64,000 nt of DNA from the NCBI RefSeq assembly GCF_001571145.1, contig NZ_BCTF01000017.1, forward strand, positions 62,001 through 126,000. The letters run 5' to 3'. This document shows positions 30,218 through 44,794 of the stretch, piece after piece. The notes beneath the pieces are model-generated. The model did no database searches. It saw only the letters and a program-made list of their open reading frames with translations, and was not told where the DNA came from. Within the stretch, counting starts at the first letter, position 1. Each line of letters begins with the position of its first letter. The DNA comes from Hydrogenophaga flava NBRC 102514 (lineage in GTDB: Bacteria > Pseudomonadota > Gammaproteobacteria > Burkholderiales > Burkholderiaceae_C). The translations under genes were made by a program, and so were the position numbers.

Positions 30218-32329
30218 TCAGCCGAGCTTCAGGTTCGGATAGCGGACATGCTCCACCAGCTCCTGGATCTTTCGACTCGGTGCCGGCGTGATCAGGCTGA
30301 CCACAATGATCACCAGAAAACCAATCGGCACACCGAAGACACCGGCCGAGATCGGCTGGATGCCATACCAGAGCTCAATCGGCGAGGTCACACCGAAGAT
30401 GCCGCGCAGCCAGGGCTGGGTAGTCACCATGTAGTAGAAGGTAATACCCAGACCTGCGACCATGCCCAGGGAGGCGGCGATACCGGTGGCGCGTTTCCAG
30501 AAGATGCCGAGCACCAGGGCCGGGAAGAACGCCGCTGCGGCGAAAGAGAACGCCGCCGACACCAGGAACAGGATGTCCGCCGGTTTCTGCGCCGCGACAT
30601 AGGCCGCTGCCAGTGCGACGATCAGCAGCAGCATCTTCGAGATGGTCACCCGGCGCGCCGTGGAGGCGTTCGGGTCGATCATCTTGTAGTACAGGTCGTG
30701 CGACAGCGCGTTGGCGATCGTCAGCAGCAGGCCGTCGGCAGTCGACAGTGCCGCGGCCAGACCACCCGCCGCCACCAGACCCGAGATCACGTACGGAAGG
30801 CCACCGATTTCGGCCGTAGCCAGCACGATGATGTCGCCGCCGATGCTCATCTCGTTGAGCTGCAGGATGTTGTCCTTGTTGATGTCGGTGACCGACAGCA
30901 GCGACGCATCCACTTTGCTCCACGCGGCCACCCACTGGGGCAACTGGTCAAACGGCGTACCGATCAGTACGTGGAACACCTCATACTTGACCAGCACCGC
31001 CAGCGCAGGCGCCGTGAAATACAGCAGGAAGATGAAGAACAGCGACCAGGTCACCGACTGTCGAGCCTCCTTCACGCTGGGCACTGTGTAGTACCGCATG
31101 AGGATGTGGGGCAAGGCGGCCGTGCCGATCATCAGGCAGAAGATCAGGGCTAGGAAGTTGCGCCGAGACTCGTTGTAGGTCTTCTGGGCTTTCTCGTCGC
31201 CGTTCGGATCGCCCGAGAACTGTGCTGCATGGGCGGGCATGCCGTTGAGCGGCTTGGCCTTGTTTTCAGCAGCCGTCTTCGCTGCAGTCCAAGCCTTCTT
31301 GGCGGCCGCCTCGTCCTTGGGCACCGCTGCCAGCGCCTTCTCGGCAGCGGCAATGTCCGCAGCGGGTGCGTTGGCGGCGCGCAACTCGGCCAGCTTGGCC
31401 TCGGCAGCGGCTTTGTCTGCGGCCAGCGCGTTGGCGGGGTCCTTGAGCTTGGCGTCGAGATCAGCGGCGCGCTTCTTGTAGATCTCGCGCACCTCCAGTT
31501 CCTTGGCGTCGTTGGTCAGCAGCTTTTCCTTGGCCGTGACCTTCTCCAGCTGGAAGCCGTAGATCGCCTGAGGCACGGGCACGCTGGTCTGCTTCACCGA
31601 CAGCCACACCACCGGGATCATGTAGGCCACGATCAGGATGATGTATTGGGCCACCTGGGTCCAGGTCACCGCGCGCATGCCGCCCAGGAACGAGCAGACC
31701 AGAATGCCGCCCAGTCCCAGGAAAATGCCCAGCTCGAAGGCCACACCGGTCAGGCGCGACGTGATCAGGCCCACGCCATAGATCTGCGCCACCACGTAGG
31801 TGAACGAGCAGAGGATGGCCGCCACGATGCCGATGAAACGCGGCAGGTTGCCGCCGTAGCGCTCACCCAGAAAGTCGGGAATGGTGAACTGGCCGAACTT
31901 GCGCAGGTACGGCGCCAGGAACAGCGCCACCAGGCAGTAGCCGCCCGTCCAGCCCATGATGAAGGCCAAGCCGCTGTAGCCCGTGAGGTAGAGCGTGCCG
32001 GCCATGCCGATGAACGACGCCGCCGACATCCAGTCGGCACCGGTCGCCATGCCGTTGTAGACCGCGGGCACCCGGCGCCCTGCCACGTAGTACTCCGCCG
32101 CGTCTGTCGTGCGGCTCATGATGCCGATGCCGGCATACAGACCGATGGTCGCGAGCAGGAAGATGAAGCCGATCCACTCGCGGGACAGCCCCATCTGTTC
32201 GAGGATGGCCAGCGTGATCACGAAGACAAAGAAGCCTCCCGTGTACCACTTGTAGACCTTGTTGAGCTGCTGCTTGAAGGCCTTGTTGGAGCCTCCCGCA
32301 GCGCCTGCAGTTTCAAACATGCCTGCCAT
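30218..32329 (-). CDS. Sodium/solute symporter (SSS family, DUF4212-associated) with coiled-coil insert
   Basis: The protein has 703 residues, long for SSS proteins. The family core is clear (AAEYYVAGRRVPAVYNGMA, DWMSAASFIGMAGTLYLTG, GGMRAVTWTQVAQYI). Between helices there is an Ala/Lys-rich predicted helix (about 275-370, DKAAAEAKLAELRAA), which accounts for the length. An EF-hand-like 12-residue loop, D482-I-N-K-D-N-I-L-Q-L-N-E493, precedes the conserved GGDIIVLATAEIGG. DUF4212 partners usually accompany acetate or other organic-acid uptake systems; the substrate is inferred. The start MAGMFETAG has GGAGTG upstream. Confidence 0.88.
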   Translation of the reverse strand: MAGMFETAGAAGGSNKAFKQQLNKVYKWYTGGFFVFVITLAILEQMGLSREWIGFIFLLATIGLYAGIGIMSRTTDAAEYYVAGRRVPAVYNGMATGADWMSAASFIGMAGTLYLTGYSGLAFIMGWTGGYCLVALFLAPYLRKFGQFTIPDFLGERYGGNLPRFIGIVAAILCSFTYVVAQIYGVGLITSRLTGVAFELGIFLGLGGILVCSFLGGMRAVTWTQVAQYIILIVAYMIPVVWLSVKQTSVPVPQAIYGFQLEKVTAKEKLLTNDAKELEVREIYKKRAADLDAKLKDPANALAADKAAAEAKLAELRAANAPAADIAAAEKALAAVPKDEAAAKKAWTAAKTAAENKAKPLNGMPAHAAQFSGDPNGDEKAQKTYNESRRNFLALIFCLMIGTAALPHILMRYYTVPSVKEARQSVTWSLFFIFLLYFTAPALAVLVKYEVFHVLIGTPFDQLPQWVAAWSKVDASLLSVTDINKDNILQLNEMSIGGDIIVLATAEIGGLPYVISGLVAAGGLAAALSTADGLLLTIANALSHDLYYKMIDPNASTARRVTISKMLLLIVALAAAYVAAQKPADILFLVSAAFSFAAAAFFPALVLGIFWKRATGIAASLGMVAGLGITFYYMVTTQPWLRGIFGVTSPIELWYGIQPISAGVFGVPIGFLVIIVVSLITPAPSRKIQELVEHVRYPNLKLG

Positions 32330-32332
32330 GGT

Positions 32333-32593
32333 TCACTCCTCGGTTTCTTCGACACCGTGCTCGATGTCAAGGCGGTTCATGTACCAGGCGTAGTACCCGA
32401 TGATCAGGCAGTACACCACCAGCGCACCCTGCGCCCCCATCCAGAAACTGAACGGCCAACCGAAGAAGTTGAAGCTCAGATCGCGGGCAAAGTAGCTCAC
32501 AACGAAGGTCACCACGAACCAGATTGCTAGCAATACGGCCGTGATGTTCAGGTTTTTCCGCCAGTATCGGCGGTGGTTCTCAGTCAATTCCAT
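32333..32593 (-). CDS. DUF4212 small membrane subunit
   Basis: The 86-residue protein has two hydrophobic helices (NITAVLLAIWFVVTFVVSYF and the second around GALVVYCLIIGYYAWYM) and the characteristic start ENHRRYWRKNL. DUF4212 proteins are encoded next to SSS symporters and are thought to be their small subunit. The stop lies 3 bp before the symporter start, so the pair is almost certainly co-translated. Confidence 0.92.
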   Translation of the reverse strand: MELTENHRRYWRKNLNITAVLLAIWFVVTFVVSYFARDLSFNFFGWPFSFWMGAQGALVVYCLIIGYYAWYMNRLDIEHGVEETEE

Positions 32594-33778: not shown

Positions 33779-35644
33779 ATGGACCACGCATCCTCCTCTT
33801 CCAGCTTGCTGGCCCGCGCGCTGGAGAACCACCGGGTTCTGGGCATGCTGGCGCCACCGACGAGGGCGTCCCTCGCAAAGGCCCTGGTCACGGTACAGGT
33901 GTCGGCCGGCGAACGGCTGACCGGAGGCGAACGGTTCGCAGACCACCTGTACTGGCTGCTCGAAGGCCAGGCGGATCTGATCGATGCAGATGGCGACGGC
34001 GTACTGGGTCTGCAGGCCGGTGACCTGTTCGGCCTTGGCCTCGGCGATGCGCTGGGTATCACTGGTGCCAGGGCCACAACAGCCGTGACCTGCGCCCGGC
34101 TGGACGCACTCACGGTGCAGACCCTGTGCCGCGAAACACCGGGACTGGCCTATTTCCTCGGCCCCGTCCCCGACACCTCCAGGCTGGCACCCGGCGCCAG
34201 GGTTGTTGGAGGCGGGTCGAGCGACCGCGCCCTCAACCTCATGACCACACCGGTGCGCGCCCTGATCAAGCGCGAGCCGGTCACGCTGTCGCCTCAGACC
34301 AGCATCCGCGAAGCGGCCCTGGTGATGAGCGACCGGCGCGTGTCTTCGGTGCTGATCGTCGAGCAAGGCCTGCTGTTCGGCCTCATCACCGACCGCGACC
34401 TGCGCAACCGCGTGATCGCAGCCGGGCTCGACACCTCGCGCCCCATTGCCGACATCGCCACCCTTGCGCCCATGAGCATCGACGTGCACAGCCCGGCGTT
34501 CGACGCCCTGCTGCTGATGGCTCGCCACAACATCCACCATGTGCCGGTGCTCGACGGCCAGCGCATCGTGGGCATGATCACCGCCACCGACCTGACCGAG
34601 CAGCACAGCACCTCGGCCGTCTACCTGGCGGGCGACATCTACAAGCAGACCACGCTCGAAGGCCTGCAGGCGGTGGCCGGCAAGGTCCGGCGCCTGCAGC
34701 AGAACCTGGCCGCGGCGGAGGCCTCAGCCCACAGCACCGGTCATATCGTCACCGCCATCACCGACGCGATCACCAGCCGGCTGCTGCAGCTGGGCGAAGC
34801 ACAGCTCGGACCGGCCCCGGTCGACTATGTGTGGGTGGCAGCAGGTTCGCAGGCCCGCAACGAGCAAACCGCCAAGTCCGACCAGGACAACTGCATGGTG
34901 CTCGACGATGCCTACGACGAGGCGCGGCACGGGGCCTACTTCAAGGCGCTGTCGACCTTCGTCTGCGACGGGCTTGATGCCTGTGGCTACGTCCACTGCC
35001 CGGGCGAGATGATGGCGATGACGGACGAGTGGCGGCAGCCGCGGCGCAAGTGGATGGAGTACTTCGCGCGCTGGACCGGCCAGCCCGATCCGAAGTCGCT
35101 GATGCTGACCTGCGTGTTCTTCGACCTGCGGGGCATCCACGGCAACTTGGAGATGCTCGACAAGCTGCGGCGGGACGTCCTGCAGCGCACCCAGGGCAAC
35201 AGCATCTTTCTGGCCTACATGGTCGGCAACGCGCTCCAGCACCAGCCGCCACTGGGCATGTTCAAGGGGCTCACCACCATCCGCAGCGGTGAGCACAAGG
35301 GAACGATCGACCTCAAGCACAGCGGCATCGTGCCCATCGTCGACCTGGCCCGTGTCTATGCGCTCGCGGGCGGCGACAGCGCGGTGAACACGCACGATCG
35401 CCTGCTCGGCGCTGCCACGGGAGGCGCCATCAGCGAGCAGAGTGCCCGCGACCTGCGCGATGCCCTGGAGTTCCTGGCCTTTCTGCGCATCCAGCACCAG
35501 GCGCGCCAGATCACCGCAGGCCAGAACCCCGACAACTTCCTCAACCCCGACGAGATCTCCAATTTCGAGCGCACCCAGCTCAAGGACGCGTTCGCCGTGG
35601 TGGCCTCGCTGCAGGGCGTGCTGGCCCAGCGGTACAGGATGTGA
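33779..35644 (+). CDS. cNMP-binding-like/CBS/DUF294 nucleotidyltransferase signalling protein
   Basis: The protein has 621 residues. It shows a cyclic-nucleotide-binding-like domain (about 20-130), two CBS domains (about 155-285), a DUF294 nucleotidyltransferase-like domain (GSQARNEQTAKSDQDN with D368 and D370) and a DUF294 C-terminal substrate-binding-like domain. Such proteins resemble the GlnD/PII-uridylyltransferase N-terminal fold, but their substrate is unknown. In other proteobacteria they cluster with SSS symporters and a DnaQ-type exonuclease, as here. It converges on the exonuclease-fusion gene across 19 bp. Confidence 0.88.
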   Translation: MDHASSSSSLLARALENHRVLGMLAPPTRASLAKALVTVQVSAGERLTGGERFADHLYWLLEGQADLIDADGDGVLGLQAGDLFGLGLGDALGITGARATTAVTCARLDALTVQTLCRETPGLAYFLGPVPDTSRLAPGARVVGGGSSDRALNLMTTPVRALIKREPVTLSPQTSIREAALVMSDRRVSSVLIVEQGLLFGLITDRDLRNRVIAAGLDTSRPIADIATLAPMSIDVHSPAFDALLLMARHNIHHVPVLDGQRIVGMITATDLTEQHSTSAVYLAGDIYKQTTLEGLQAVAGKVRRLQQNLAAAEASAHSTGHIVTAITDAITSRLLQLGEAQLGPAPVDYVWVAAGSQARNEQTAKSDQDNCMVLDDAYDEARHGAYFKALSTFVCDGLDACGYVHCPGEMMAMTDEWRQPRRKWMEYFARWTGQPDPKSLMLTCVFFDLRGIHGNLEMLDKLRRDVLQRTQGNSIFLAYMVGNALQHQPPLGMFKGLTTIRSGEHKGTIDLKHSGIVPIVDLARVYALAGGDSAVNTHDRLLGAATGGAISEQSARDLRDALEFLAFLRIQHQARQITAGQNPDNFLNPDEISNFERTQLKDAFAVVASLQGVLAQRYRM

Positions 35645-35663: not shown

Positions 35664-37859
35664 TCAGTACTTCAGCCGGGCGTAGTACGTCTGCTGCGCG
35701 GCCTCGCGCGCCTGGCCCAGGGTGTGGATGCCTTTTTCGGCCAGCAGCGGGATCAGCTTGAGGAACACCTCGGCCGTCACCATGGCGTCGCCCATCGCGG
35801 TGTGGCGCCCGATGACGGTGACGTTGAAGCGCTCCGCAATCGCCTCCAGCCGGTGGGAGTCCTGGCTCGGGTGGATGACCGCCGACAGCAGCAGCGTGTC
35901 CAGCACGGGCTGGTCGAACACCACGCCGGTCTGCCCTTCCTTGAGCTGCAGGAAGCGCATGTCGAACGCCGCGTTGTGCGCCACCAGCACCGTGTCCTGC
36001 GCGAACGCGTGGAAGGCCGGAAGCACCTGGTCGATGGTCGGCTGGCCCACCACCATCTCGGGCTGGATGCCGTGGATCGGGATGGTGGCCGGCGGGATCG
36101 GGCGCTTCGGGTCCACCAGCTGCTCGAAGCACTCCTGGCGCAGCAGCTTGTTGTTCACCAGGCGAGCAGCGCCGATCTGGATGATCTCGTCGCCCTGCGA
36201 TGGGTTCAGCCCCGTGGTTTCGGTGTCGAACACGGTGTAGGTCAGCTCGGTCAGCAGGCGGTCGTCCATCGAGCGTGTCTGCTCGGTCGTCTTGAACAGG
36301 TCGAAGTCGTAGTACTCCGGGCGGCTGTCGCTGCGCACGAAGGTGGCGGCATCCACCTGCTCCTGCGGGCGGGCAAGCGGCAGCAGGAAGCGAAAAAAGG
36401 CCTGGTGGCGGATGCGCTCGCGCTCGAACCAGAAGGCACCGTTGTGCCGCTCGACCACGTCGCGCACCGTCAGCCGCAGGGTTTCGCCGCCGACCTTCAT
36501 CGGGTCCAGCTCCCAGCTCATCACGGTCTCGGTGCTCATGGCCTGACCGCTCCAGATCAGGTCCAGCCAGGCCTTGCCCGCCGAGCCGGAAGCCGGCTGC
36601 AGGCGCAGCTGCACAAAGCGCACCTCGAACTCGTCGGACAGGCGCCCCGCCAAGTACACCAGGGATTGGATCAGCGAGAAGCTCTCGATTCGCAACCACA
36701 GCGCGCCGTCCACCTCGGCGGCCGACATTGGCACAGAGGTCGCCACCTCGATGCGCCTGAGCGCCGCCGTCACGAAGTCGGCGCCCAGCATGTCCTCCAG
36801 GGGCCAGCGGGTCTTGAGGCTGTCGGCCGAGCCAGCCTCCAGGTCGCCGATGCGCCGGCTCAGGGCGCCGGTCTCGTCGCGGATCACCCCGAGGAAGCGC
36901 TCGCGCATGGCCGCGTCCAGGTCGGGGTAGTCGAGCATGTCCAGCGCCGCCTGCATATTGGCCAGCGCCGCCCGGCTGCGCTCGGTGAGCGTGTGCAGCA
37001 CCTGGTCCTTGGCCGCCTCGACCTCGAACTCGCGTGTGATGTTGTCCAGCATGAGCACAAATCCGGTCAACGCAGAACCCGACCCATCGGCGCCCTCGCC
37101 AGACGGCGCACGCACCGGCGCCATCTGCACCCGCAGCAGCTGCCCGGCCGGTGTGGTGGTGACGAACTGGGCCGAGGGCTGAGCGGCGCCGCGCGCCATG
37201 CGCTGCTGGATGTTCTCGAGCGCATGCGCCACCAGCTTGCGGTCGAACACGCTGTAGATCGAACGGCCCAGCCCGATCAGTTCGGCCCCGCCGGCCACGC
37301 CGGGCGCCTGCGACAGTGCGCGGAACTGCATGCGCGCCCGGTTGTTGTAGAGCAGGATGCGCCCGTCCAGATTGCACACCACCACGCTCTGGGTGAGCTC
37401 CGACATCAGCGCCGCCAGCCGGCTTTTCTCCTGCTCGATGCCGCGCGCCGCCTCGTGCACCTTGTGGTCCATCTCGCGGCGCAGGTCTTCCCGCTGCGTC
37501 ACCAGCTGGTTGAACAGGCCCACCAGCACCTGGGTCTCGGCGTTGCCCTTGGGTGTGAGTTCACGCACCACATCGGTCCTGAGCAGCACCTGGGCCTCTT
37601 CGGCCAGCTGCACCGAGGGCGTCACCCACAGGTCGAACCAGCGCTTGAGGCCCCAGCCGATCACCCCCATGCCGGCCGCCCAGGTCAGCACGATCAGCAC
37701 CAGGCGGTCTCCCACGGTCTGCAGCACCGCCTGGCGCTCCTGCGCCTCCATGGCCGAGCCGATGAGGCCGAAGGTCGCCCCCAGCCACAGCAGGGAGGCC
37801 ACTGCGGCGGCGCCCAGCAGCCACCACAGGCGCGGGTCGGTCTTCTTCTGAAGACTCAC
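35664..37859 (-). CDS. Membrane-anchored PAS/pseudo-histidine-kinase fused to DEDDh 3'-5' exonuclease (DnaQ-like)
   Basis: The protein has 731 residues from a GTG start that overlaps the response-regulator stop (GTGA). Two N-terminal membrane helices (about 11-30 and 48-68) are followed by a HAMP-like linker, a PAS domain (SVVVCNLDGRILLYNNRARM) and a helical segment where HisKA would lie. That segment (LHTLTERSRAALANMQ) has no phospho-accepting His, and the next, HATPase-like segment lacks the N and G boxes. Residues 540-720 are a complete DEDDh exonuclease: D545-x-E547 (FDTETTGL), D633 (HNAAFDMRF), H686 and D691 (HTAMGD). It is probably a sensor-tethered nuclease. Function is inferred; DNA and RNA are both possible substrates. 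Confidence 0.85.
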   Translation of the reverse strand: MSLQKKTDPRLWWLLGAAAVASLLWLGATFGLIGSAMEAQERQAVLQTVGDRLVLIVLTWAAGMGVIGWGLKRWFDLWVTPSVQLAEEAQVLLRTDVVRELTPKGNAETQVLVGLFNQLVTQREDLRREMDHKVHEAARGIEQEKSRLAALMSELTQSVVVCNLDGRILLYNNRARMQFRALSQAPGVAGGAELIGLGRSIYSVFDRKLVAHALENIQQRMARGAAQPSAQFVTTTPAGQLLRVQMAPVRAPSGEGADGSGSALTGFVLMLDNITREFEVEAAKDQVLHTLTERSRAALANMQAALDMLDYPDLDAAMRERFLGVIRDETGALSRRIGDLEAGSADSLKTRWPLEDMLGADFVTAALRRIEVATSVPMSAAEVDGALWLRIESFSLIQSLVYLAGRLSDEFEVRFVQLRLQPASGSAGKAWLDLIWSGQAMSTETVMSWELDPMKVGGETLRLTVRDVVERHNGAFWFERERIRHQAFFRFLLPLARPQEQVDAATFVRSDSRPEYYDFDLFKTTEQTRSMDDRLLTELTYTVFDTETTGLNPSQGDEIIQIGAARLVNNKLLRQECFEQLVDPKRPIPPATIPIHGIQPEMVVGQPTIDQVLPAFHAFAQDTVLVAHNAAFDMRFLQLKEGQTGVVFDQPVLDTLLLSAVIHPSQDSHRLEAIAERFNVTVIGRHTAMGDAMVTAEVFLKLIPLLAEKGIHTLGQAREAAQQTYYARLKY

Positions 37860-38230
37860 GCGCCGCCCCCCAGCAGCTCCCGCACTTTCTGCACCAGCTC
37901 CTTGGTCGAGAACGGTTTGGTCATGTAGGCGTTGGCGCCCAGCGCGAGGCCCTTGGCCACGTCGGTGTCGCGCCCCTTGGCCGTGAGCATGACGATCAGC
38001 GTGTCGCGCACCGCTTCGTTGGCGCGCACCTCGCAGCAGACGTCGAAGCCGGTCTTGATGGGCATCATCACGTCCAGCAGCACCAGCGCCGGGCGCTCGC
38101 GCACGATGGCGTCCATGGCCTCCTGGCCGTCGCGCGCCAGCACCACCTCGTAGCCCTCTCGCTTCATCAGGAACTCCAGCGAGATCAGGATGTTCGGTTC
38201 GTCGTCGGCGATCAGGATCTTGGTGCTCAT
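37856..38230 (-). CDS. Single-domain response regulator (CheY-like)
   Basis: The 124-residue receiver has no output domain. The acidic pair D9-D10, phospho-acceptor D53 (LLDVMMP), T83 and K105 (YMTKPF) are all present. Its start overlaps the histidine-kinase stop and its stop overlaps the exonuclease-fusion start, so the three are translationally coupled. Output presumably passes through a partner protein rather than DNA binding. Confidence 0.92.
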   Translation of the reverse strand: MSTKILIADDEPNILISLEFLMKREGYEVVLARDGQEAMDAIVRERPALVLLDVMMPIKTGFDVCCEVRANEAVRDTLIVMLTAKGRDTDVAKGLALGANAYMTKPFSTKELVQKVRELLGGGA

Positions 38231-40989
38231 GTGTCTTGTCTCCTCGGTGATTCTGTCTGTCCATGCCAGGCCGCCAACGGCAGCGAGAACCCGAAGCAGG
38301 CGCCCTGCCCCGGTTCCGACCGCAGCCACATCCGACCGCCGAAGTGCTCGACGATCTGGCGGCTGATCGGCAGCCCCAGCCCGGTGCCACCAGGCCGGTA
38401 ATGTGCGTCGCCGGCCACCTGCCGGAACTTCTCGAACACCATGGCCTGCTGGTCCAGCGGAATGCCGGGGCCGTTGTCCTGCACCTCGATGCGCACGCTG
38501 CCACCATCGCAGTCCAGGCGCAACACCACCTGTCCGTTCTCGCGCGGCGCGTACTTCAGCGCGTTCGACAGCAGGTTCAGCACCACCTGGGTCAGGCGGT
38601 CGGCATCCGCCTCCACCAGAGGCACATGCCCGGCCAGTTCCCGCTGCAGCGCCACGCCTCGCTCCCGGTACATCTCGGCCATGCTGTCGGCCGCCTGCTC
38701 GGCCACCTCGCGCAGATCCACCCCGTCCACGATCCACTCCGCATGCCCGGCCTCGATCTTGGCCATGTCCAGCACCTGGTTGACCAGGCGGCTCAGGCGC
38801 TCGGCTTCGGTCACGATGATGCCCAGGAACTGCTGCCGCTGCGCCAGCTCCATGGCGTCATCGTCCCTCATGAGTTCCGACAGCGCCCTGATCGATGTCA
38901 AGGGCGTGCGCAGCTCGTGTGTCACCGACGACATGAAGTCGTCCTTGAGACGGTCCAGGCTCTGCAGCTTCTCGTTCGCCTCTCGCAGCTCGGTGGTGGC
39001 GCGCTCCAGGGACTGCGATTTCTCCTCCAGCGCCGTCGAGTAGGCCCGCAGCTGCGAGGCCTCGTCCAGGATGCGCATGACGTCGTCGAGGTCGAGCTGC
39101 TCCTCCTCGGCCACGGAGGCCACCATCACCCGGGCCGATGCGCTGCCGATAGCGCCCGCCAGCTGCGTTTCCACAAATTGCACCAGCCGCGCGTCGGCCG
39201 GGATGTCGGCCACCTGCCCCACGCCGCGGTCGCGCGCATGCGCCTGAAGCAGCTGGGCGGCCCGGGCCGCTCCCAGGAACCGCACCATCAGGGCCTGCAG
39301 CTCGGACACCTGAGCGCGCCCCTGCCAGAACACCGGGCGTGCGCCCTCGGTGCGGTGGAACACGTCCACGAACAGCAGCGCCTGGCTGGTCTCCGCCGCC
39401 GACGGTGCCCGCCAGAGCGACACCGCCACATAGCCCCCGACGTTGGCCAGCAGGCTCCAGAACAGCGAGTGGGTCAGGTTGTCGAGTCCGCTCAGACCCA
39501 GAAAGGCCTCGGGTTTGATCCATGTCCAACCGAACAGACCATGCTCCAGAAATCCGCCTGGCAGCCAGCCCGACTTCGCCAGCGAGGGCAGCATCAGCGT
39601 GTAGGCCCAGAAGCCGAAGCCCAGCACCAGACCTGCCAGCGCGCCGCGCTGCGTCCCCCCCTTCCAGTACATGCCGCCCAGCATCGCGGGTGCAAACTGC
39701 GCCACCGCGGCAAAGCTGATCAGGCCGATGCTCACCAGCGCGTAGGCCTCGCCCGCCAGGTGGAAATACAGGTACCCCAGCAGCAGGATCAGCAGGATGG
39801 CCAGCCGCCGGATCAGCAGCAGCAGCCCGGTGAGGTCGGAGGCCGAGCGCATGCCGACGCGGTGGCTGCGCAGCAGCAGCGGCATCACCAGGTCGTTGCA
39901 CAGCATGGTCGACACCGCGATGGCCTCGACGATCACCATGCCCGTGGCGGCCGACAGCCCACCAACGAAGGCCAGCAGCGCCAGACCATTCAAGCCTTCG
40001 GACAAAGGCAGCGACAGCACGAAGGTTTCCGGGTCCATGCGCTCCGGGCCGAAATGCATCAGGCCGCCGATGGCAATGGGCAACACGAACAGGTTGATCA
40101 GCAACAGGTACAGCGGGAACACCCAGACCGCGCGGCGCAGGTGCTGCTCGCGAACGTTCTCCACCACCATGACCTGGAACTGGCGCGGCAGGAAGAGCAC
40201 CGACAGCATGGCCAGCAGGGTCTGCCCGGTCCACTGGGCGTAGGCGAAGGGCTGGCCCTGGTCAAACTGCAGCAGCCGATGCATGGACTCCTGCGCCCGC
40301 GCCTTTTCAAACAGGTCACCCAGCCCGTCGTACAGCCCGTAGGCGACGAACAGCCCCACCGCGAGAAACGCCACCAGCTTGACCACCGACTCGAAGGCGA
40401 TCGCCGCCACCATGCCTTCGTGGCGTTCGGTGCTGTCCAGGTGCCGTGCGCCGAACACCATGGTGAACCCCGCCAGCGCCAGCGCCACATAGAGCGTGCT
40501 GTCGCGCCACCACTGCTGCGGCGGCGCCGCCGCCTCGCCCAGCGGCGAGGTGAGCACCGCGTAACCGCTGGCAATCGCCTTGAGCTGCAGCGCGATGTAG
40601 GGAACGATGCCCACCAGCGTGATCAGCGTCACCAGCCCGGCCAGCAGCGGGCTCTTGCCGTAGCGGCTGGCGATGAAGTCGGCGATGGAGGTGATGCGGT
40701 AGGTGCGCGCGATGCGGATCATCTTGCGCACCACCATCCAGGCCAGGACCATGGCCAGCATGGGCCCCAGGTAGATCGGCAGGAACCACACGCCCGAACT
40801 GGCGGCGCGGCCGACGCTGCCGAAGTAGGTCCAGGCCGTGCAATAGACGGCCATGGACAACGCATAGACCCAGGCGTTGCCGATGACCGAGCGCCCCGCC
40901 TGCGCGCGGCAGTCGCCCCAGTAGGCCACCGCAAACAGCAGCAGCAGGTAGGCAAAGGAAACACCGATGACCAGCGGGGCAGACAGCAT
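38227..40989 (-). CDS. SSS symporter-histidine kinase hybrid (CbrA/CrbS-type)
   Basis: The protein has 920 residues. Residues 1-500 are an SSS-type transporter core with about 13 helices (SIADFIASRYGKSPLL, GGLSAATGMVIVEAIAVS). A linker of about 120 residues follows, then a coiled coil (EKSQSLERATTELREANEKL), HisKA with H691 (SSVTHELRTPLTSI) and HATPase_c (NLLSNALKYAPREN, DNGPGIP, GGTGLGLPIS). CbrA and CrbS sense or respond to organic acids or amino acids; CrbS controls acetate assimilation. Its place beside acetate-type symporters suggests a similar role here. Confidence 0.92.
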   Translation of the reverse strand: MLSAPLVIGVSFAYLLLLFAVAYWGDCRAQAGRSVIGNAWVYALSMAVYCTAWTYFGSVGRAASSGVWFLPIYLGPMLAMVLAWMVVRKMIRIARTYRITSIADFIASRYGKSPLLAGLVTLITLVGIVPYIALQLKAIASGYAVLTSPLGEAAAPPQQWWRDSTLYVALALAGFTMVFGARHLDSTERHEGMVAAIAFESVVKLVAFLAVGLFVAYGLYDGLGDLFEKARAQESMHRLLQFDQGQPFAYAQWTGQTLLAMLSVLFLPRQFQVMVVENVREQHLRRAVWVFPLYLLLINLFVLPIAIGGLMHFGPERMDPETFVLSLPLSEGLNGLALLAFVGGLSAATGMVIVEAIAVSTMLCNDLVMPLLLRSHRVGMRSASDLTGLLLLIRRLAILLILLLGYLYFHLAGEAYALVSIGLISFAAVAQFAPAMLGGMYWKGGTQRGALAGLVLGFGFWAYTLMLPSLAKSGWLPGGFLEHGLFGWTWIKPEAFLGLSGLDNLTHSLFWSLLANVGGYVAVSLWRAPSAAETSQALLFVDVFHRTEGARPVFWQGRAQVSELQALMVRFLGAARAAQLLQAHARDRGVGQVADIPADARLVQFVETQLAGAIGSASARVMVASVAEEEQLDLDDVMRILDEASQLRAYSTALEEKSQSLERATTELREANEKLQSLDRLKDDFMSSVTHELRTPLTSIRALSELMRDDDAMELAQRQQFLGIIVTEAERLSRLVNQVLDMAKIEAGHAEWIVDGVDLREVAEQAADSMAEMYRERGVALQRELAGHVPLVEADADRLTQVVLNLLSNALKYAPRENGQVVLRLDCDGGSVRIEVQDNGPGIPLDQQAMVFEKFRQVAGDAHYRPGGTGLGLPISRQIVEHFGGRMWLRSEPGQGACFGFSLPLAAWHGQTESPRRQDT

Positions 40990-40992
40990 GGT

Positions 40993-41214
40993 TCAGTTGC
41001 GGTCACCGCCGGGCGCGGCGTCCGGCGAACGCTCGACGATCCAGGCCAGCGCGCCGATGAGCAGTGCCCAGATCAGGAACAGCGCCGCCGGGAACAGGGG
41101 CAGCCCCAGCACGCGGATGTCATGGTCCCAGAGCGCGAGCAGCGGAAAGTTGAACAGCAACAGACCGGCCACGAACAGGGCCACCAGGCGTTGGGCGTCC
41201 AGTCCTCGAAACAT
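40993..41214 (-). CDS. Small two-helix membrane protein upstream of the symporter kinase
   Basis: The 73-residue protein, starting MFRGLDAQRLVALF, has two hydrophobic helices separated by ALWDHDIRVLGLPLF. GAGGAG stands upstream of 41214. The stop lies 3 bp before the kinase start, so it is co-translated. Similar small proteins sit before CbrA-type kinases in other bacteria, but I cannot name the family. Confidence 0.78.
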   Translation of the reverse strand: MFRGLDAQRLVALFVAGLLLFNFPLLALWDHDIRVLGLPLFPAALFLIWALLIGALAWIVERSPDAAPGGDRN

Positions 41215-41309
41215 GCGCGTCTCCTCGGTCGGCGACGACCTCGTGGGGTCGCCTTTGTGCCTGATTGTGCGCCAGGCACTGACCCCGGCCTTACGCTGGA
41301 GCACAAAGC

Positions 41310-41357: not shown

Positions 41358-43757
41358 TCACTTGGCGGAAGACGCCAGCAACTGCCAGGTGTCGACCACC
41401 GAGTCCGGGTTCAGCGAGATCGAGCTGATGCCCTCGTCGCGCAGCCACTGCGCGAAGTCCGGGTGGTCGCTGGGGCCCTGGCCGCAGATGCCCACGTACT
41501 TGCCCTCGGCCCTGCAGGCGCCGATGGCCAGCTTGAGCAGCGCCTTGACGGCTGGATCGCGCTCGTCGAAGTCGTGAGCCAGCAGTTCCAGGCCCGAGTC
41601 GCGGTCCAGACCCAGGGTGAGCTGGGTCAGATCGTTGGAGCCGATGGAGAAGCCGTCGAAGTACTGCAGGAAGTCCTTGGCCAGCACCGCGTTGCTCGGA
41701 ATCTCGCACATCATGATCAGCTTGAGCTCGTGCTCGCCGCGCTTCAGACCCTTGGCCGCCAGCAGCTCGGTCACCTTGCGCGCCTGCTCCAGCGTGCGCA
41801 CGAAGGGCACCATCACCTGCACGTTGGTCAGGCCCATGTCCTCGCGCACGCGCTTGAGGGCTTCGCACTCCATGGCAAAGGCTTCGGCAAAGTCCGCACT
41901 GATGTAGCGTGCCGCGCCGCGGAAGCCCAGCATCGGGTTCTCCTCGTCCGGCTCGTAGCGGCTGCCACCGACCAGCTTGCGGTACTCGTTGGACTTGAAA
42001 TCCGACAGGCGCACGATGACGGGCTTGGGCCAGAACGCGGCGGCAATCGTCGCCACGCCCTCGGCCACCTTGTCGACGTAGAAGGCGCGCGGCGAGGCGT
42101 GGCCACGGGCCACCGACTCGACCGCCTTCTTCAGGTCGGCATCGACGGCCGGGTAGTCTAGGATGGCCTTGGGGTGCACCCCGATGTTGTTGTTGATGAT
42201 GAACTCCAGCCGCGCCAGGCCGACGCCGCCGTTGGGCACCTGGGCAAAGTCGAAGGCGAGCTGCGGGTTGCCCACGTTCATCATGATCTTCACGTCGACC
42301 TCGGGCATGGTGCCGCGCTGGACTTCGGTGATTTCGGTTTCCAGCAGGCCGTCGTAGATGTGGCCGGTGTCGCCTTCGGCGCAGCTCACCGTCACCAGCG
42401 TGCCGTCCTTGAGATGGTCGGTGGCGTTGCCGCAGCCGACCACAGCCGGGATGCCCAGCTCGCGCGCGATGATGGCCGCGTGGCAGGTGCGGCCGCCGCG
42501 GTTGGTGACGATGGCGCTGGCGCGCTTCATCACCGGTTCCCAGTTCGGGTCGGTCATGTCGGTCACCAGCACGTCGCCGGGTTGCACCTTGTCCATCTCG
42601 CTGATGTTGTGCACCAGTCGCACGGGGCCGGTGCCCACCTTCTGGCCGATGGCGCGGCCACTGGCCAGCACGGCGCCCTTGCCCTTGAGCTTGTAGCGGA
42701 CTTCGGTCTTGCCGGCCGACTGGCTCTTCACCGTCTCGGGGCGGGCCTGCAGGATGTAGAGCTGGCCGTCGGTGCCGTCCTTGCCCCACTCGATGTCCAT
42801 CGGACGGCCGTAGTGCTGCTCGATCACCAGCGCGTAGTGCGCCAGTTGCTCGACCTCGGCGTTGGTCAGGCTGTAGCGGTTGCGCAGCTCGACCGGCACG
42901 TCCAAGGTCTTGACCAGCTTCTTCGTCGCGGCTTTTTCCTCGGGCGTGGAGAACACCATCTCGATCAACTTGCTGCCCAGGTTGCGGCGGATCACGGCCT
43001 TCTTGCCGGCCTTGAGCATGGGCTTGTGCACATAGAACTCGTCGGGGTTCACGGCGCCCTGCACCACCGTCTCACCCAGACCGTAGCTGGAGGTGATGAA
43101 GACCACGTCCTCGAAGCCCGACTCGGTGTCGATGGTGAACATCACACCGGCGGCGCCGAGGTCGGAACGCACCATGCGCTGCACACCGGCCGACAGGGCC
43201 ACGTCGGCGTGGGCGAAGCCCTTGTGCACGCGGTAACTGATGGCGCGGTCGTTGTACAGGGAGGCAAACACCTCCTTCATCTTGTGCAGCACATCCTCGA
43301 TGCCGTGCACGTTCAGGAAGGTTTCCTGCTGACCGGCGAACGAGGCGTCGGGCAGGTCTTCGGCCGTGGCAGACGAACGCACCGCGAACGAGGCATCGGG
43401 GTTGCCGGCGGACAGGCGGGCAAATTCCTCGCGGATGGCCTTTTCCAGATCGGCCGGGAAGGGCTGGTTCTCGACCATGGCGCGGATCTCGGCACCGGCC
43501 TCGGCCAGGGCGCGCACGTCCTCGGTGTCGAGCGCGTCCAGGCGGGCGTTGATGCGGTCGGTCAGACCATCGAACTTGAGGAACTCGCGGAAGGCATGGG
43601 CTGTGGTGGCGAAGCCCGTGGGCACCTTCACGCCTTGCGGCAGTTGCGAAATCATCTCGCCGAGGCTGGCGTTTTTGCCGCCAACGATCTCGACATCGTT
43701 CATTCGCAGTTTTTCGAAAGGCACGACCAGGGCGGTCGGCTCGAACAGGTTGGACAT
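41358..43757 (-). CDS. ppsA: Phosphoenolpyruvate synthase
   Basis: The protein has 799 residues. It converts pyruvate and ATP to PEP, AMP and Pi, the first step of gluconeogenesis from C2/C3 acids. The N-terminal ATP-grasp domain ([29 protein letters not shown]), the catalytic His in [15 protein letters not shown] and the C-terminal TIM barrel with [12 protein letters not shown]-type Cys ([13 protein letters not shown]) are intact. It is divergent from ppsR, its regulator. It fits the acetate/organic-acid theme of the neighbourhood. Confidence 0.97.
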
Positions 43758-43972
43758 GGAAGACTCCTAAGGTTGAAAAACCGGGGGGCTCCATGCGCCA
43801 GCGGGTGACCTGTGGTTCTGTTATGGGTCGTGCACCGGGCAGGGGGCAAGCAATCTGGGCGCCCGTGATTGTAGGATGGTGCCGCCAGCCCCGGATCACC
43901 CCGCGCCGCCCTTCCCTGTGAAATCAGCGCCGGGTGCCCCTGAAATTTCTTGAACCCCCAGCGAGCCCTGCC

Positions 43973-44794
43973 ATGCCCAACCGCACCGTCTTTTTCATCT
44001 CCGATGGCACCGGCATCACCGCCGAGACCTTTGGCAACGCCATCCTGGCCCAGTTCGAGACCACGGTCCGCCGGGTGCGCCTGCCGTTCCTGGACAGCGT
44101 GGACAAGGCCCACCAGGCCGTGCGCCAGATTAACCACACCGCCGAGGTCGAGGGCCGGCGTCCCCTGGTGTTCGCCACCGTGGTCAACATGGAGGTGCTG
44201 GCGGTGGTCAAGGAGCACTGCCACGGCATGATGCTGGACATGTTCGGCACCTTCGTCGAACCGCTGGAAGAGGAACTGGGCATCAAGTCCAACCACCGGG
44301 TCGGCCGCTTCTCGGACGCATCCAAGAGCAAGGAATACAACGACCGCATCGAGGCGATCAACTTCGCGCTCATGCACGACGACGGCCAGAGCCACAAGGA
44401 CCTGGAGGGCTCGGACGTGATCCTGGTGGGCGTCAGCCGAAGCGGCAAGACACCGACTTCGCTCTACCTGGCCATGCAGCATGGCCTGAAGGCGTCCAAC
44501 TACCCGCTGATTCCGGAAGACTTCGAACGCCGCAAACTGCCGCCGGCGCTGATGCCCCATCGCAAGAAGATCTTCGGCCTGACCATTGCCCCCGAGCGGC
44601 TCTCGGAGATCCGCAACGAGCGCCGACCCAATTCGCGCTACGCCAGCCTGGAGAACTGCCGGGCCGAGGTGAACGAGGCCGAGGCCATGATGCGGCGCGA
44701 AGGCATCCGCTGGCTCTCGACCACGACCAAGTCGATCGAAGAAATCGCCACCACCATCCTGCAGGAAATCCGCCCGGAGCGGCTGGCGTACTGA
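43973..44794 (+). CDS. ppsR: PEP synthase regulatory protein (bifunctional kinase/pyrophosphorylase, DUF299)
   Basis: The protein has 273 residues, the family length, starting [18 protein letters not shown]. The P-loop [15 protein letters not shown] and the C-terminal [18 protein letters not shown] are diagnostic. PpsR inactivates PEP synthase by ADP-dependent phosphorylation and reactivates it by phosphorolysis. It is divergent from ppsA across 215 bp. The longer reading from 43934 has no homology. Confidence 0.96.

Follow-up and report, generated by a model that had tools for sequence, protein, structure and literature searches.

A membrane-tethered pseudo-histidine kinase fused to a DEDDh exonuclease, a candidate effector of a symporter-kinase two-component system

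Introduction

Among the closest known counterparts of the system reported here is CrbS/CrbR (MxtR/ErdR), a symporter-kinase system whose targets include an ActP-type symporter, a CBS protein and an RNase_T-family nuclease (PMC9927547). In Pseudomonas putida, deletion of pp_0353, which encodes an RNase_T protein in an operon with a CBS protein, impaired growth on pyruvate, as did mutations in mxtR, erdR and actP-I, and the authors speculate on mRNA degradation; deletion of pp_0354, encoding the CBS protein, left growth on pyruvate normal (PMC9927547). Here we describe a gene in a 64,000-nucleotide stretch of Hydrogenophaga flava NBRC 102514 (contig NZ_BCTF01000017.1, positions 62,001 to 126,000; hereafter the window), the product of which, termed EXOF, joins membrane helices, a PAS domain and a dead histidine kinase core to a DEDDh 3'-5' exonuclease. 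Its gene follows those of a single-domain response regulator (RR) and a sodium:solute symporter-histidine kinase (SSSHK). We propose, with a probability of roughly 55%, that EXOF is, like DivL, a converted kinase, one that takes its input from the RR and gates its own exonuclease, acting as effector of an SSSHK two-component system tied to pyruvate or acetate uptake.

The locus shares with CrbS/CrbR a symporter fused to an intact kinase, SSSHK having SSF, HisKA and HATPase_c domains, and differs in that its RR has no DNA-binding domain and its nuclease is fused to a pseudo-kinase. No DNA-binding partner regulator adjoins SSSHK, the neighbouring RR being a single domain of 124 residues, and the rest of the genome was not searched for one. 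PP_0353 is like EXOF in its RNase_T family, its operon with a CBS protein, the position of homologues beside actP in other species and its pyruvate phenotype, whereas the portion of the paper drawn upon describes no membrane or kinase part for it (PMC9927547); from family and context, as described there, it may be a standalone counterpart of the EXOF nuclease. Phosphoenolpyruvate synthase and its regulator PpsR, encoded next door, give the window a pyruvate-metabolism context.

For the kinase part the relevant precedent is DivL of Caulobacter, in which a dead kinase core can sense a phosphorylated response regulator, DivK~P (PMC4211667). Both proteins are pseudo-kinases with PAS domains that have lost the phospho-His, and in DivL ATP binding is weak and the core serves as the input for the response regulator (PMC4211667). 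The target of DivL is the kinase CckA, and DivL carries Tyr where EXOF has Glu; EXOF has a terminal exonuclease, and its binding of an RR is only proposed. DivL (4q20) is among the PDB matches of EXOF (E 0.014), and a single-domain RR is encoded near the dead core; that EXOF works in a DivL-like manner is supported, and it may belong among the pseudokinases that read an RR.

DnaQ- and PolC-type DEDDh exonucleases share the fold and catalytic residues of the EXOF nuclease, but EXOF has membrane helices and signalling neighbours and no polymerase partner beside it in the window. In eukaryotes, IRE1 and RNase L combine a sensor, a kinase or pseudokinase and a nuclease in one chain, a functional likeness for which we claim no homology. 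The open-licence literature, represented mostly by titles and abstracts, yielded no description of the fusion or of a two-component system that has such a protein as its partner, and the available parts of PMC9100948, PMC1183210 and PMC5436829 contain no fused nuclease. The parts of the system are already known; what appears new, as far as this literature goes, is that a membrane-tethered pseudo-kinase/exonuclease is combined with a two-component system.

Results

EXOF is encoded on the minus strand (Table 1), and the bases GTGA at 37856-37859 are common to the RR stop and the EXOF GTG start. Pfam profiles identified RNase_T (residues 543-699, E 1.6e-35) and, at 23.0 bits just below the cut-off of 23.1, PAS_4 (residues 155-255, E 1e-4); HAMP, HisKA and HATPase were all unmatched up to E 0.1. 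The AlphaFold model (mean pLDDT 77.2, pTM 0.43, from a 73-row alignment) matched HAMP-PAS-kinase structures in Foldseek, among them the WalK model 9a5d (E 8.7e-20) and the VicK-like 4i5s (E 8.9e-16); its poor global rmsd to such structures is expected because the protein is jointed. An earlier note on this DNA, written from its letters and open reading frames, had placed the fusion at these coordinates, with the strand unstated, and had described two membrane helices, a HAMP-like linker, a PAS part, a degenerate kinase core, a complete DEDDh exonuclease and a start/stop overlap with a response regulator. The coordinates are correct and these elements were all recovered, the helices as two N-terminal hydropathy peaks and as helices in the model, with a reservation for the linker, which is HAMP-like in position, predicted helices and likeness to HAMP-PAS kinases but not by profile.

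EXOF represents a conserved family, as judged by sequence comparison. A scan of GTDB contigs found at least 577 relatives among at least 595 matched stretches, and the best 80 (L037-L116) were used; the named members among these 80 are beta- or gamma-proteobacteria. In all, 107 distinct fused sequences, including that of the window and one Paracoccus plasmid copy, have the same domain order over at least 550 aligned positions, some being cut at contig ends, and 96 of them show two N-terminal hydropathy peaks. Because so many distinct homologues are fused in the same order, the fusion is not due to chance, a frameshift or separate starts, and the earlier note's proviso that one of the latter two might split the protein is not borne out. 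Public annotations list family members as 'exonuclease domain-containing protein' or 'DNA polymerase III subunit epsilon'. One plasmid copy, that of Paracoccus sp. SMMA_5, gives a match broken in two and carries two gene annotations, and in Rhodoferax antarcticus a partial N-terminal copy (residues 5-215; L101:7944-8645) stands directly before the full gene.

The kinase core of EXOF is dead by its signature residues and, on profile evidence, homologous to the kinase core of SSSHK. In one hhalign comparison with the adjacent SSSHK the two cores scored 98.6% (E 1.4e-15) over 213 columns across DHp and CA, as against 0.3% for the EXOF exonuclease domain used as control, which rules out a chance resemblance to kinases. 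Read off this alignment, the phospho-His column holds E293, the N-box Asn pair is replaced by Y402 and R406, and the G1 Asp by W436. The phospho-acceptor position is never His in the 107 fused proteins: Glu stands there in 94, Asp in 6, Gln in 5, and Val and Arg in one each. Trp occupies the G1 Asp position in every one, and Asn is absent from both N-box columns. The HisKA profile matched weakly in 20 of 46 family members (best E 0.0017) and left the core of the window's own EXOF unmatched. The core is thus of common descent with histidine kinases, yet lacks their His, N-box and G1 residues; a dead kinase retained with an invariant residue of its own is therefore not a case of recent decay. 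When the pseudo-core profile was run against 47 candidates in its own genome, the operon SSSHK came out ahead of all other non-self matches (E 1.3e-9, against 5.6e-7 for the kinase after it), and in 17 other EXOF-bearing genomes SSSHK ranked top in 14 (13 beside EXOF, one unlinked), second in one and was absent from two.

By its residues, the exonuclease is predicted to have an intact catalytic site: the DEDDh set (D545, E547, D633, H686, D691) is complete, and it is kept in 106/107 fused sequences, the exception being L016. The domain resembles those of PolC, DinG and epsilon, with 2p1j as a PDB match (E 9.9e-31) and PolC/epsilon exonucleases among the Foldseek matches (PolC 9qpc, rmsd 1.7). 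It passes the broad epsilon-family model TIGR00573 (109.9 vs 71.5 bits) and falls far under the cut-off of the specific replicative-epsilon model dnaQ_proteo (107.2 vs 222.7 bits). Of the EXOF regions measured, it has the shortest tree. In a 49-row tree of exonuclease domains, 25 fused domains cluster with the standalone L140 (support 90/82), separate from epsilon-like rows; the tree gives no backing to an origin of the fused form in a DUF294-linked exonuclease, because L140 has a long branch and both exonuclease-DUF294 proteins fall outside the cluster. A role in a defence system was also rejected: PADLOC matches in EXOF were confined to the DEDDh domain (three models, one generic DEDDh and two PDC-S48), and no PADLOC model matched the DUF294 protein or SSSHK at E<=0.001.

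The earlier note had asked for a homology search on the linkage to symporter kinases, and this linkage proved to be conserved. In 89 of the 102 usable loci the end of the RR falls in a zone that reaches from 200 bp ahead of the estimated EXOF start to 60 bp within the gene, and SSSHK is present in 81 of the 93 loci with enough room. These counts are drawn from 105 EXOF loci, L140 (no EXOF) being left out, three with <600 bp upstream dropped for the RR, and L057 and L148, a single contig, counted twice; in the 13 loci not scored as RR-adjacent, the RR frame overlaps beyond the cut-off in L146 and L196 and 11 have no RR. The RR is a bare receiver of 121-132 residues with D53 and K105 in 94/94 and T or S at position 83, and is predicted to be phosphorylatable. 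Comparison of RR residues between EXOF-bearing (94 rows) and EXOF-less loci (14 rows) was uninformative, only positions 56 and 66 passing the filter, and no single-chain RR-EXOF or SSSHK-EXOF fusion was found at the thresholds applied among loci L001-L116. DUF294 occurs in 67/105 loci, and 87/105 carry one or more of DUF294, symporter and DUF4212. On plasmid 1 of Paracoccus denitrificans PD1222 the genes for DUF294, a small protein, SSSHK, RR and EXOF form a five-gene run (PDEN_RS25395-RS25415) in which each gene overlaps the next, three times by 4 bases and once by 11; the gene table, which is incomplete, lists no SSS symporter gene within 9 kb of it. These genome comparisons suggest that a neighbouring nutrient-sensing switch controls EXOF, which is probably not itself the primary sensor, because its two membrane helices are joined by a short loop (~15-20 residues) and its core is closest to that of SSSHK.

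Across 300 genomes of the order, an EXOF-type match was found in 23 (E<=1e-30) and SSSHK in 33 (E<=1e-150), with both in 17 where 2.5 would be expected if they were independent. The six EXOF-type genomes without SSSHK hold an exonuclease-DUF294 protein (G454), a protein without kinase part (G285), a fragment at a contig end (G256) and the copies in G204, G333 and G453. Presence is patchy, neither protein being matched at these thresholds in G107, which belongs to the genus of the window genome. Two variants, L196 and L152, run straight from a PAS or PAS-like part to the exonuclease with no pseudo-kinase; L196 still has its membrane part and a PAS-like part, and in L152 a PAS domain is matched and stretches near the N-terminus look hydrophobic by eye. 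The L196 genome (G283) has SSSHK, and that of L152 (G285) has none at E<=1e-150.

Among close copies, conservation of the DHp region tracks whether SSSHK is present. Seven of these copies come from genomes in which nothing matches SSSHK at E<=1e-60, namely L085, L092 and L096 (metagenome assemblies) and L101 (draft), all of unstated completeness, and G453, G333 and G204, which are 99-100% complete; they form four lineages on a tree of the other EXOF regions. In the log2 ratio of DHp distance to PAS and exonuclease distance the seven rank 1-7 of 105 (0.68-1.17, with linked rows from -1.05 to 0.67), and they do so again in a 118-row comparison; CA was not raised in them (p 0.55) and HAMP was slightly lower (p 0.02). 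Three copies that stand apart from an SSSHK present elsewhere in the genome (L009, L131, L126) gave ratios of -0.22 to -0.02, under the linked median. A simpler regression, in which nine rows lacked an adjacent SSSHK and two of the nine have it elsewhere, pointed the same way for DHp helix 1 (p 0.0008) and helix 2 (6e-6) and gave no effect in HAMP (0.82); the rows are related, and the p-values of these comparisons therefore overstate. Glu293 is kept in 89/94 linked rows vs 3/9 without adjacent SSSHK, two of those three having SSSHK elsewhere. L016 and L011 were left out of both comparisons, and L126 and L014 also of the regression, and among the linked rows are some loci that end too soon to reveal SSSHK (e.g. 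L080, L104, L111, L112).

Table 1. Features of the EXOF locus in the window
Feature	Position	Strand	Remarks
Pseudo-histidine kinase / DEDDh exonuclease fusion (EXOF)	35664..37859	minus	731 aa, GTG start, single open frame to stop
Membrane helix 1	37761..37826	minus	~residues 12-33; hydropathy peak and helix in AlphaFold model
Membrane helix 2	37647..37703	minus	~residues 53-71; hydropathy peak and AlphaFold model
HAMP-like helical linker	37431..37646	minus	~residues 72-143; position, model helices, Foldseek to HAMP-PAS kinases; no HAMP profile match
PAS domain	37035..37427	minus	~residues 145-275; PAS_4 E 1e-4; strongly conserved
Pseudo-DHp, Glu293 at phospho-His site	36825..37034	minus	profile alignment and family comparison
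Pseudo-CA (ATPase-like) domain with W436	36366..36797	minus	profile alignment and family comparison
Conserved linker SRPEYYDFDLF (residues 512-522)	36285..36338	minus	family conservation
DEDDh 3'-5' exonuclease domain	35757..36239	minus	residues 541-701; Pfam, structure matches, family comparison
Single-domain response regulator (RR)	37856..38230	minus	124 aa; D53/T83/K105
Sodium:solute symporter-histidine kinase (SSSHK)	38227..40989	minus	920 aa; SSF, HisKA, HATPase_c matched; 4-base overlap with RR
Small membrane protein before SSSHK	40993..41304	minus	no Pfam family; recurs across loci
CBS - DUF294 nucleotidyltransferase	33779..35644	plus	convergent with EXOF, 19 bp between the gene ends; cNMP-binding match weak
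VC_2705-family sodium/solute symporter	30218..32329	minus	TIGR03648, 801 bits
Symporter small subunit (DUF4212 / TIGR03647)	32333..32593	minus	profile match
Phosphoenolpyruvate synthase	41358..43757	minus	pyruvate-metabolism context
PpsR, regulator of phosphoenolpyruvate synthase	43934..44794	plus	context

Several further observations concern the neighbouring genes. The VC_2705-family symporter of the window has 703 residues against a family profile of 547 positions and, by eye, an Ala/Lys/Glu-rich middle stretch of roughly 100 residues or more. A second kinase-exonuclease pairing is found in the same genome (G000:C19, ~85.5-88.4 kb; L150), where a sensor-kinase-like gene with an HEIMSP-type H-box, recognized by eye, overlaps by ATGA a separate gene (L150:7780-8397) for a 206-residue DEDDh exonuclease. 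At SSSHK loci of the order without EXOF, a second response regulator was seen near SSSHK in 10 of 16 (L181, L182, L183, L184, L185, L186, L187, L190, L192, L197); the one checked, in L187, is FixJ-like with a LuxR-type domain. Single-chain DEDDh exonuclease-CBS-DUF294 proteins are encoded beside SSS genes at L141:5828-7999 and L151:2439-4562, and as predicted from their domains these chains link the two enzymes independently.

Discussion

In the model that we propose, SSSHK would sense a small carboxylate, most likely pyruvate or acetate, and phosphorylate the single-domain RR. In one of its phosphorylation states the RR would dock on the pseudo-DHp of EXOF, a core that has no phosphotransfer but, as in DivL, could retain RR binding, and docking would alter the HAMP/PAS/DHp dimer. 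The conserved SRPEYYDFDLF linker may pass this change on to gate the exonuclease at the inner membrane, which would then trim nucleic acids from the 3' end; RNA connected with the uptake or use of carboxylates is the likeliest substrate. The earlier note had taken the dead kinase for a conformational relay; a receiver of the RR signal fits the data better than a passive relay, although the PAS or membrane part of EXOF may add an input of its own. Its link to small carboxylates stands as far as the uptake context goes, but it had looked to acetate, and the published PP_0353 phenotype is on pyruvate (PMC9927547).

Several findings weigh against this model. Sixteen of the 33 SSSHK genomes of the order have no EXOF match and in 14 of these the RR still adjoins SSSHK, so that the RR must have another role as well; L196 keeps SSSHK and the RR yet has no pseudo-kinase; in one genome, G015, another kinase outscores SSSHK as the match to the pseudo-core; and L149 (509-2734, the same as L016) keeps the whole architecture without the DEDDh residues, RNase_T being unmatched. 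The DHp evidence is also open to challenge. The gap between SSSHK-less and linked copies is thin (0.68 vs 0.67), SSSHK could have been missed in four of the seven genomes because they are incompletely documented drafts or metagenome assemblies, and the simpler regression put CA slightly low as well (p 0.022) and had a normal DHp alpha1 in 2/9 rows. Moreover, 16 distant rows (nine newly fetched, two earlier left out, five earlier used as linked) showed no separation in DHp distance between the four without close SSSHK and the 12 with it (p 0.34), the four ranking 94-114 of 118; their genomes were classed in this way despite matches at E<=1e-60, the best of which are 35-38% identical and end by query residue 644 of 920, within the symporter part. 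Glu293 in these rows is found in 0/4 vs 9/12, and the DHp of L209 is shortened. The distance measure may be saturated at this range, and we count the result as a partial failure.

Alternatively, EXOF could be its own sensor, its helices and PAS domain responding to the membrane or to a cytosolic ligand, with the core a passive stalk and the RR uninvolved. The high conservation of PAS, the two variants that dispense with the pseudo-kinase and the retention of PAS, CA and exonuclease in SSSHK-less copies all fit this account, but it leaves unexplained why in close SSSHK-less copies it is above all the DHp that diverges, why Glu293 goes with SSSHK, and why the RR directly precedes EXOF at most loci; we regard it as unlikely. 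It is also conceivable, since the pseudo-core is closest to SSSHK, that mixed EXOF-SSSHK dimers form, and EXOF might then act upstream, pairing with SSSHK or sequestering the RR in feedback or as a scaffold, with the exonuclease secondary. The dead exonuclease of L016/L149, in which the remainder is kept, would suit such a role. The near-universal DEDDh set, the short tree of the exonuclease and its retention in proteins that have lost the pseudo-kinase are hard to reconcile with it, and make it improbable.

The DUF294 protein raises the possibility of a writer and an eraser, in which DUF294 adds nucleotides to protein or RNA, the DEDDh domain removes them and the signal sets the balance. In 48/105 loci DUF294 is either adjacent to EXOF (42) or immediately precedes the pair of small protein and SSSHK (6); it also shares the P. 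denitrificans operon and is joined to an exonuclease in the L141 and L151 chains; that of the window has a GS...DxD stretch, which we take to be its motif. Against this, DUF294 was not seen in 38/105 loci, some of them short, deletion of pp_0354 is without the pyruvate phenotype of pp_0353 (PMC9927547), and no target is known, and we give the idea little credence. Combined with the proposed mechanism, in which the output of the two-component system would be a tethered 3'-5' exonuclease reached via an RR-receptor kinase, a partner nucleotidyltransferase opposing it would amount to a write/erase switch on nucleotide tails at the carboxylate uptake site, a speculation that we hold to be quite unlikely. 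That EXOF is an ordinary repair or turnover nuclease set on a kinase relic by happenstance is scarcely credible: the domain does look like those of PolC, DinG and epsilon and passes TIGR00573, but it is far under the cut-offs of models for specific proteins, e.g. dnaQ_proteo, and its signalling linkage is conserved.

We therefore retain as our preferred reading that EXOF receives the RR signal and gates its exonuclease, and the compact five-gene version in P. denitrificans PD1222 makes this testable. If it is true, bacterial two-component signalling would here have the trimming of nucleic acids as its direct end point, a dead kinase serving as the wire. Bacterial signalling would thereby gain an output of a new kind, and the unexplained pyruvate phenotype of PP_0353 a candidate mechanism.

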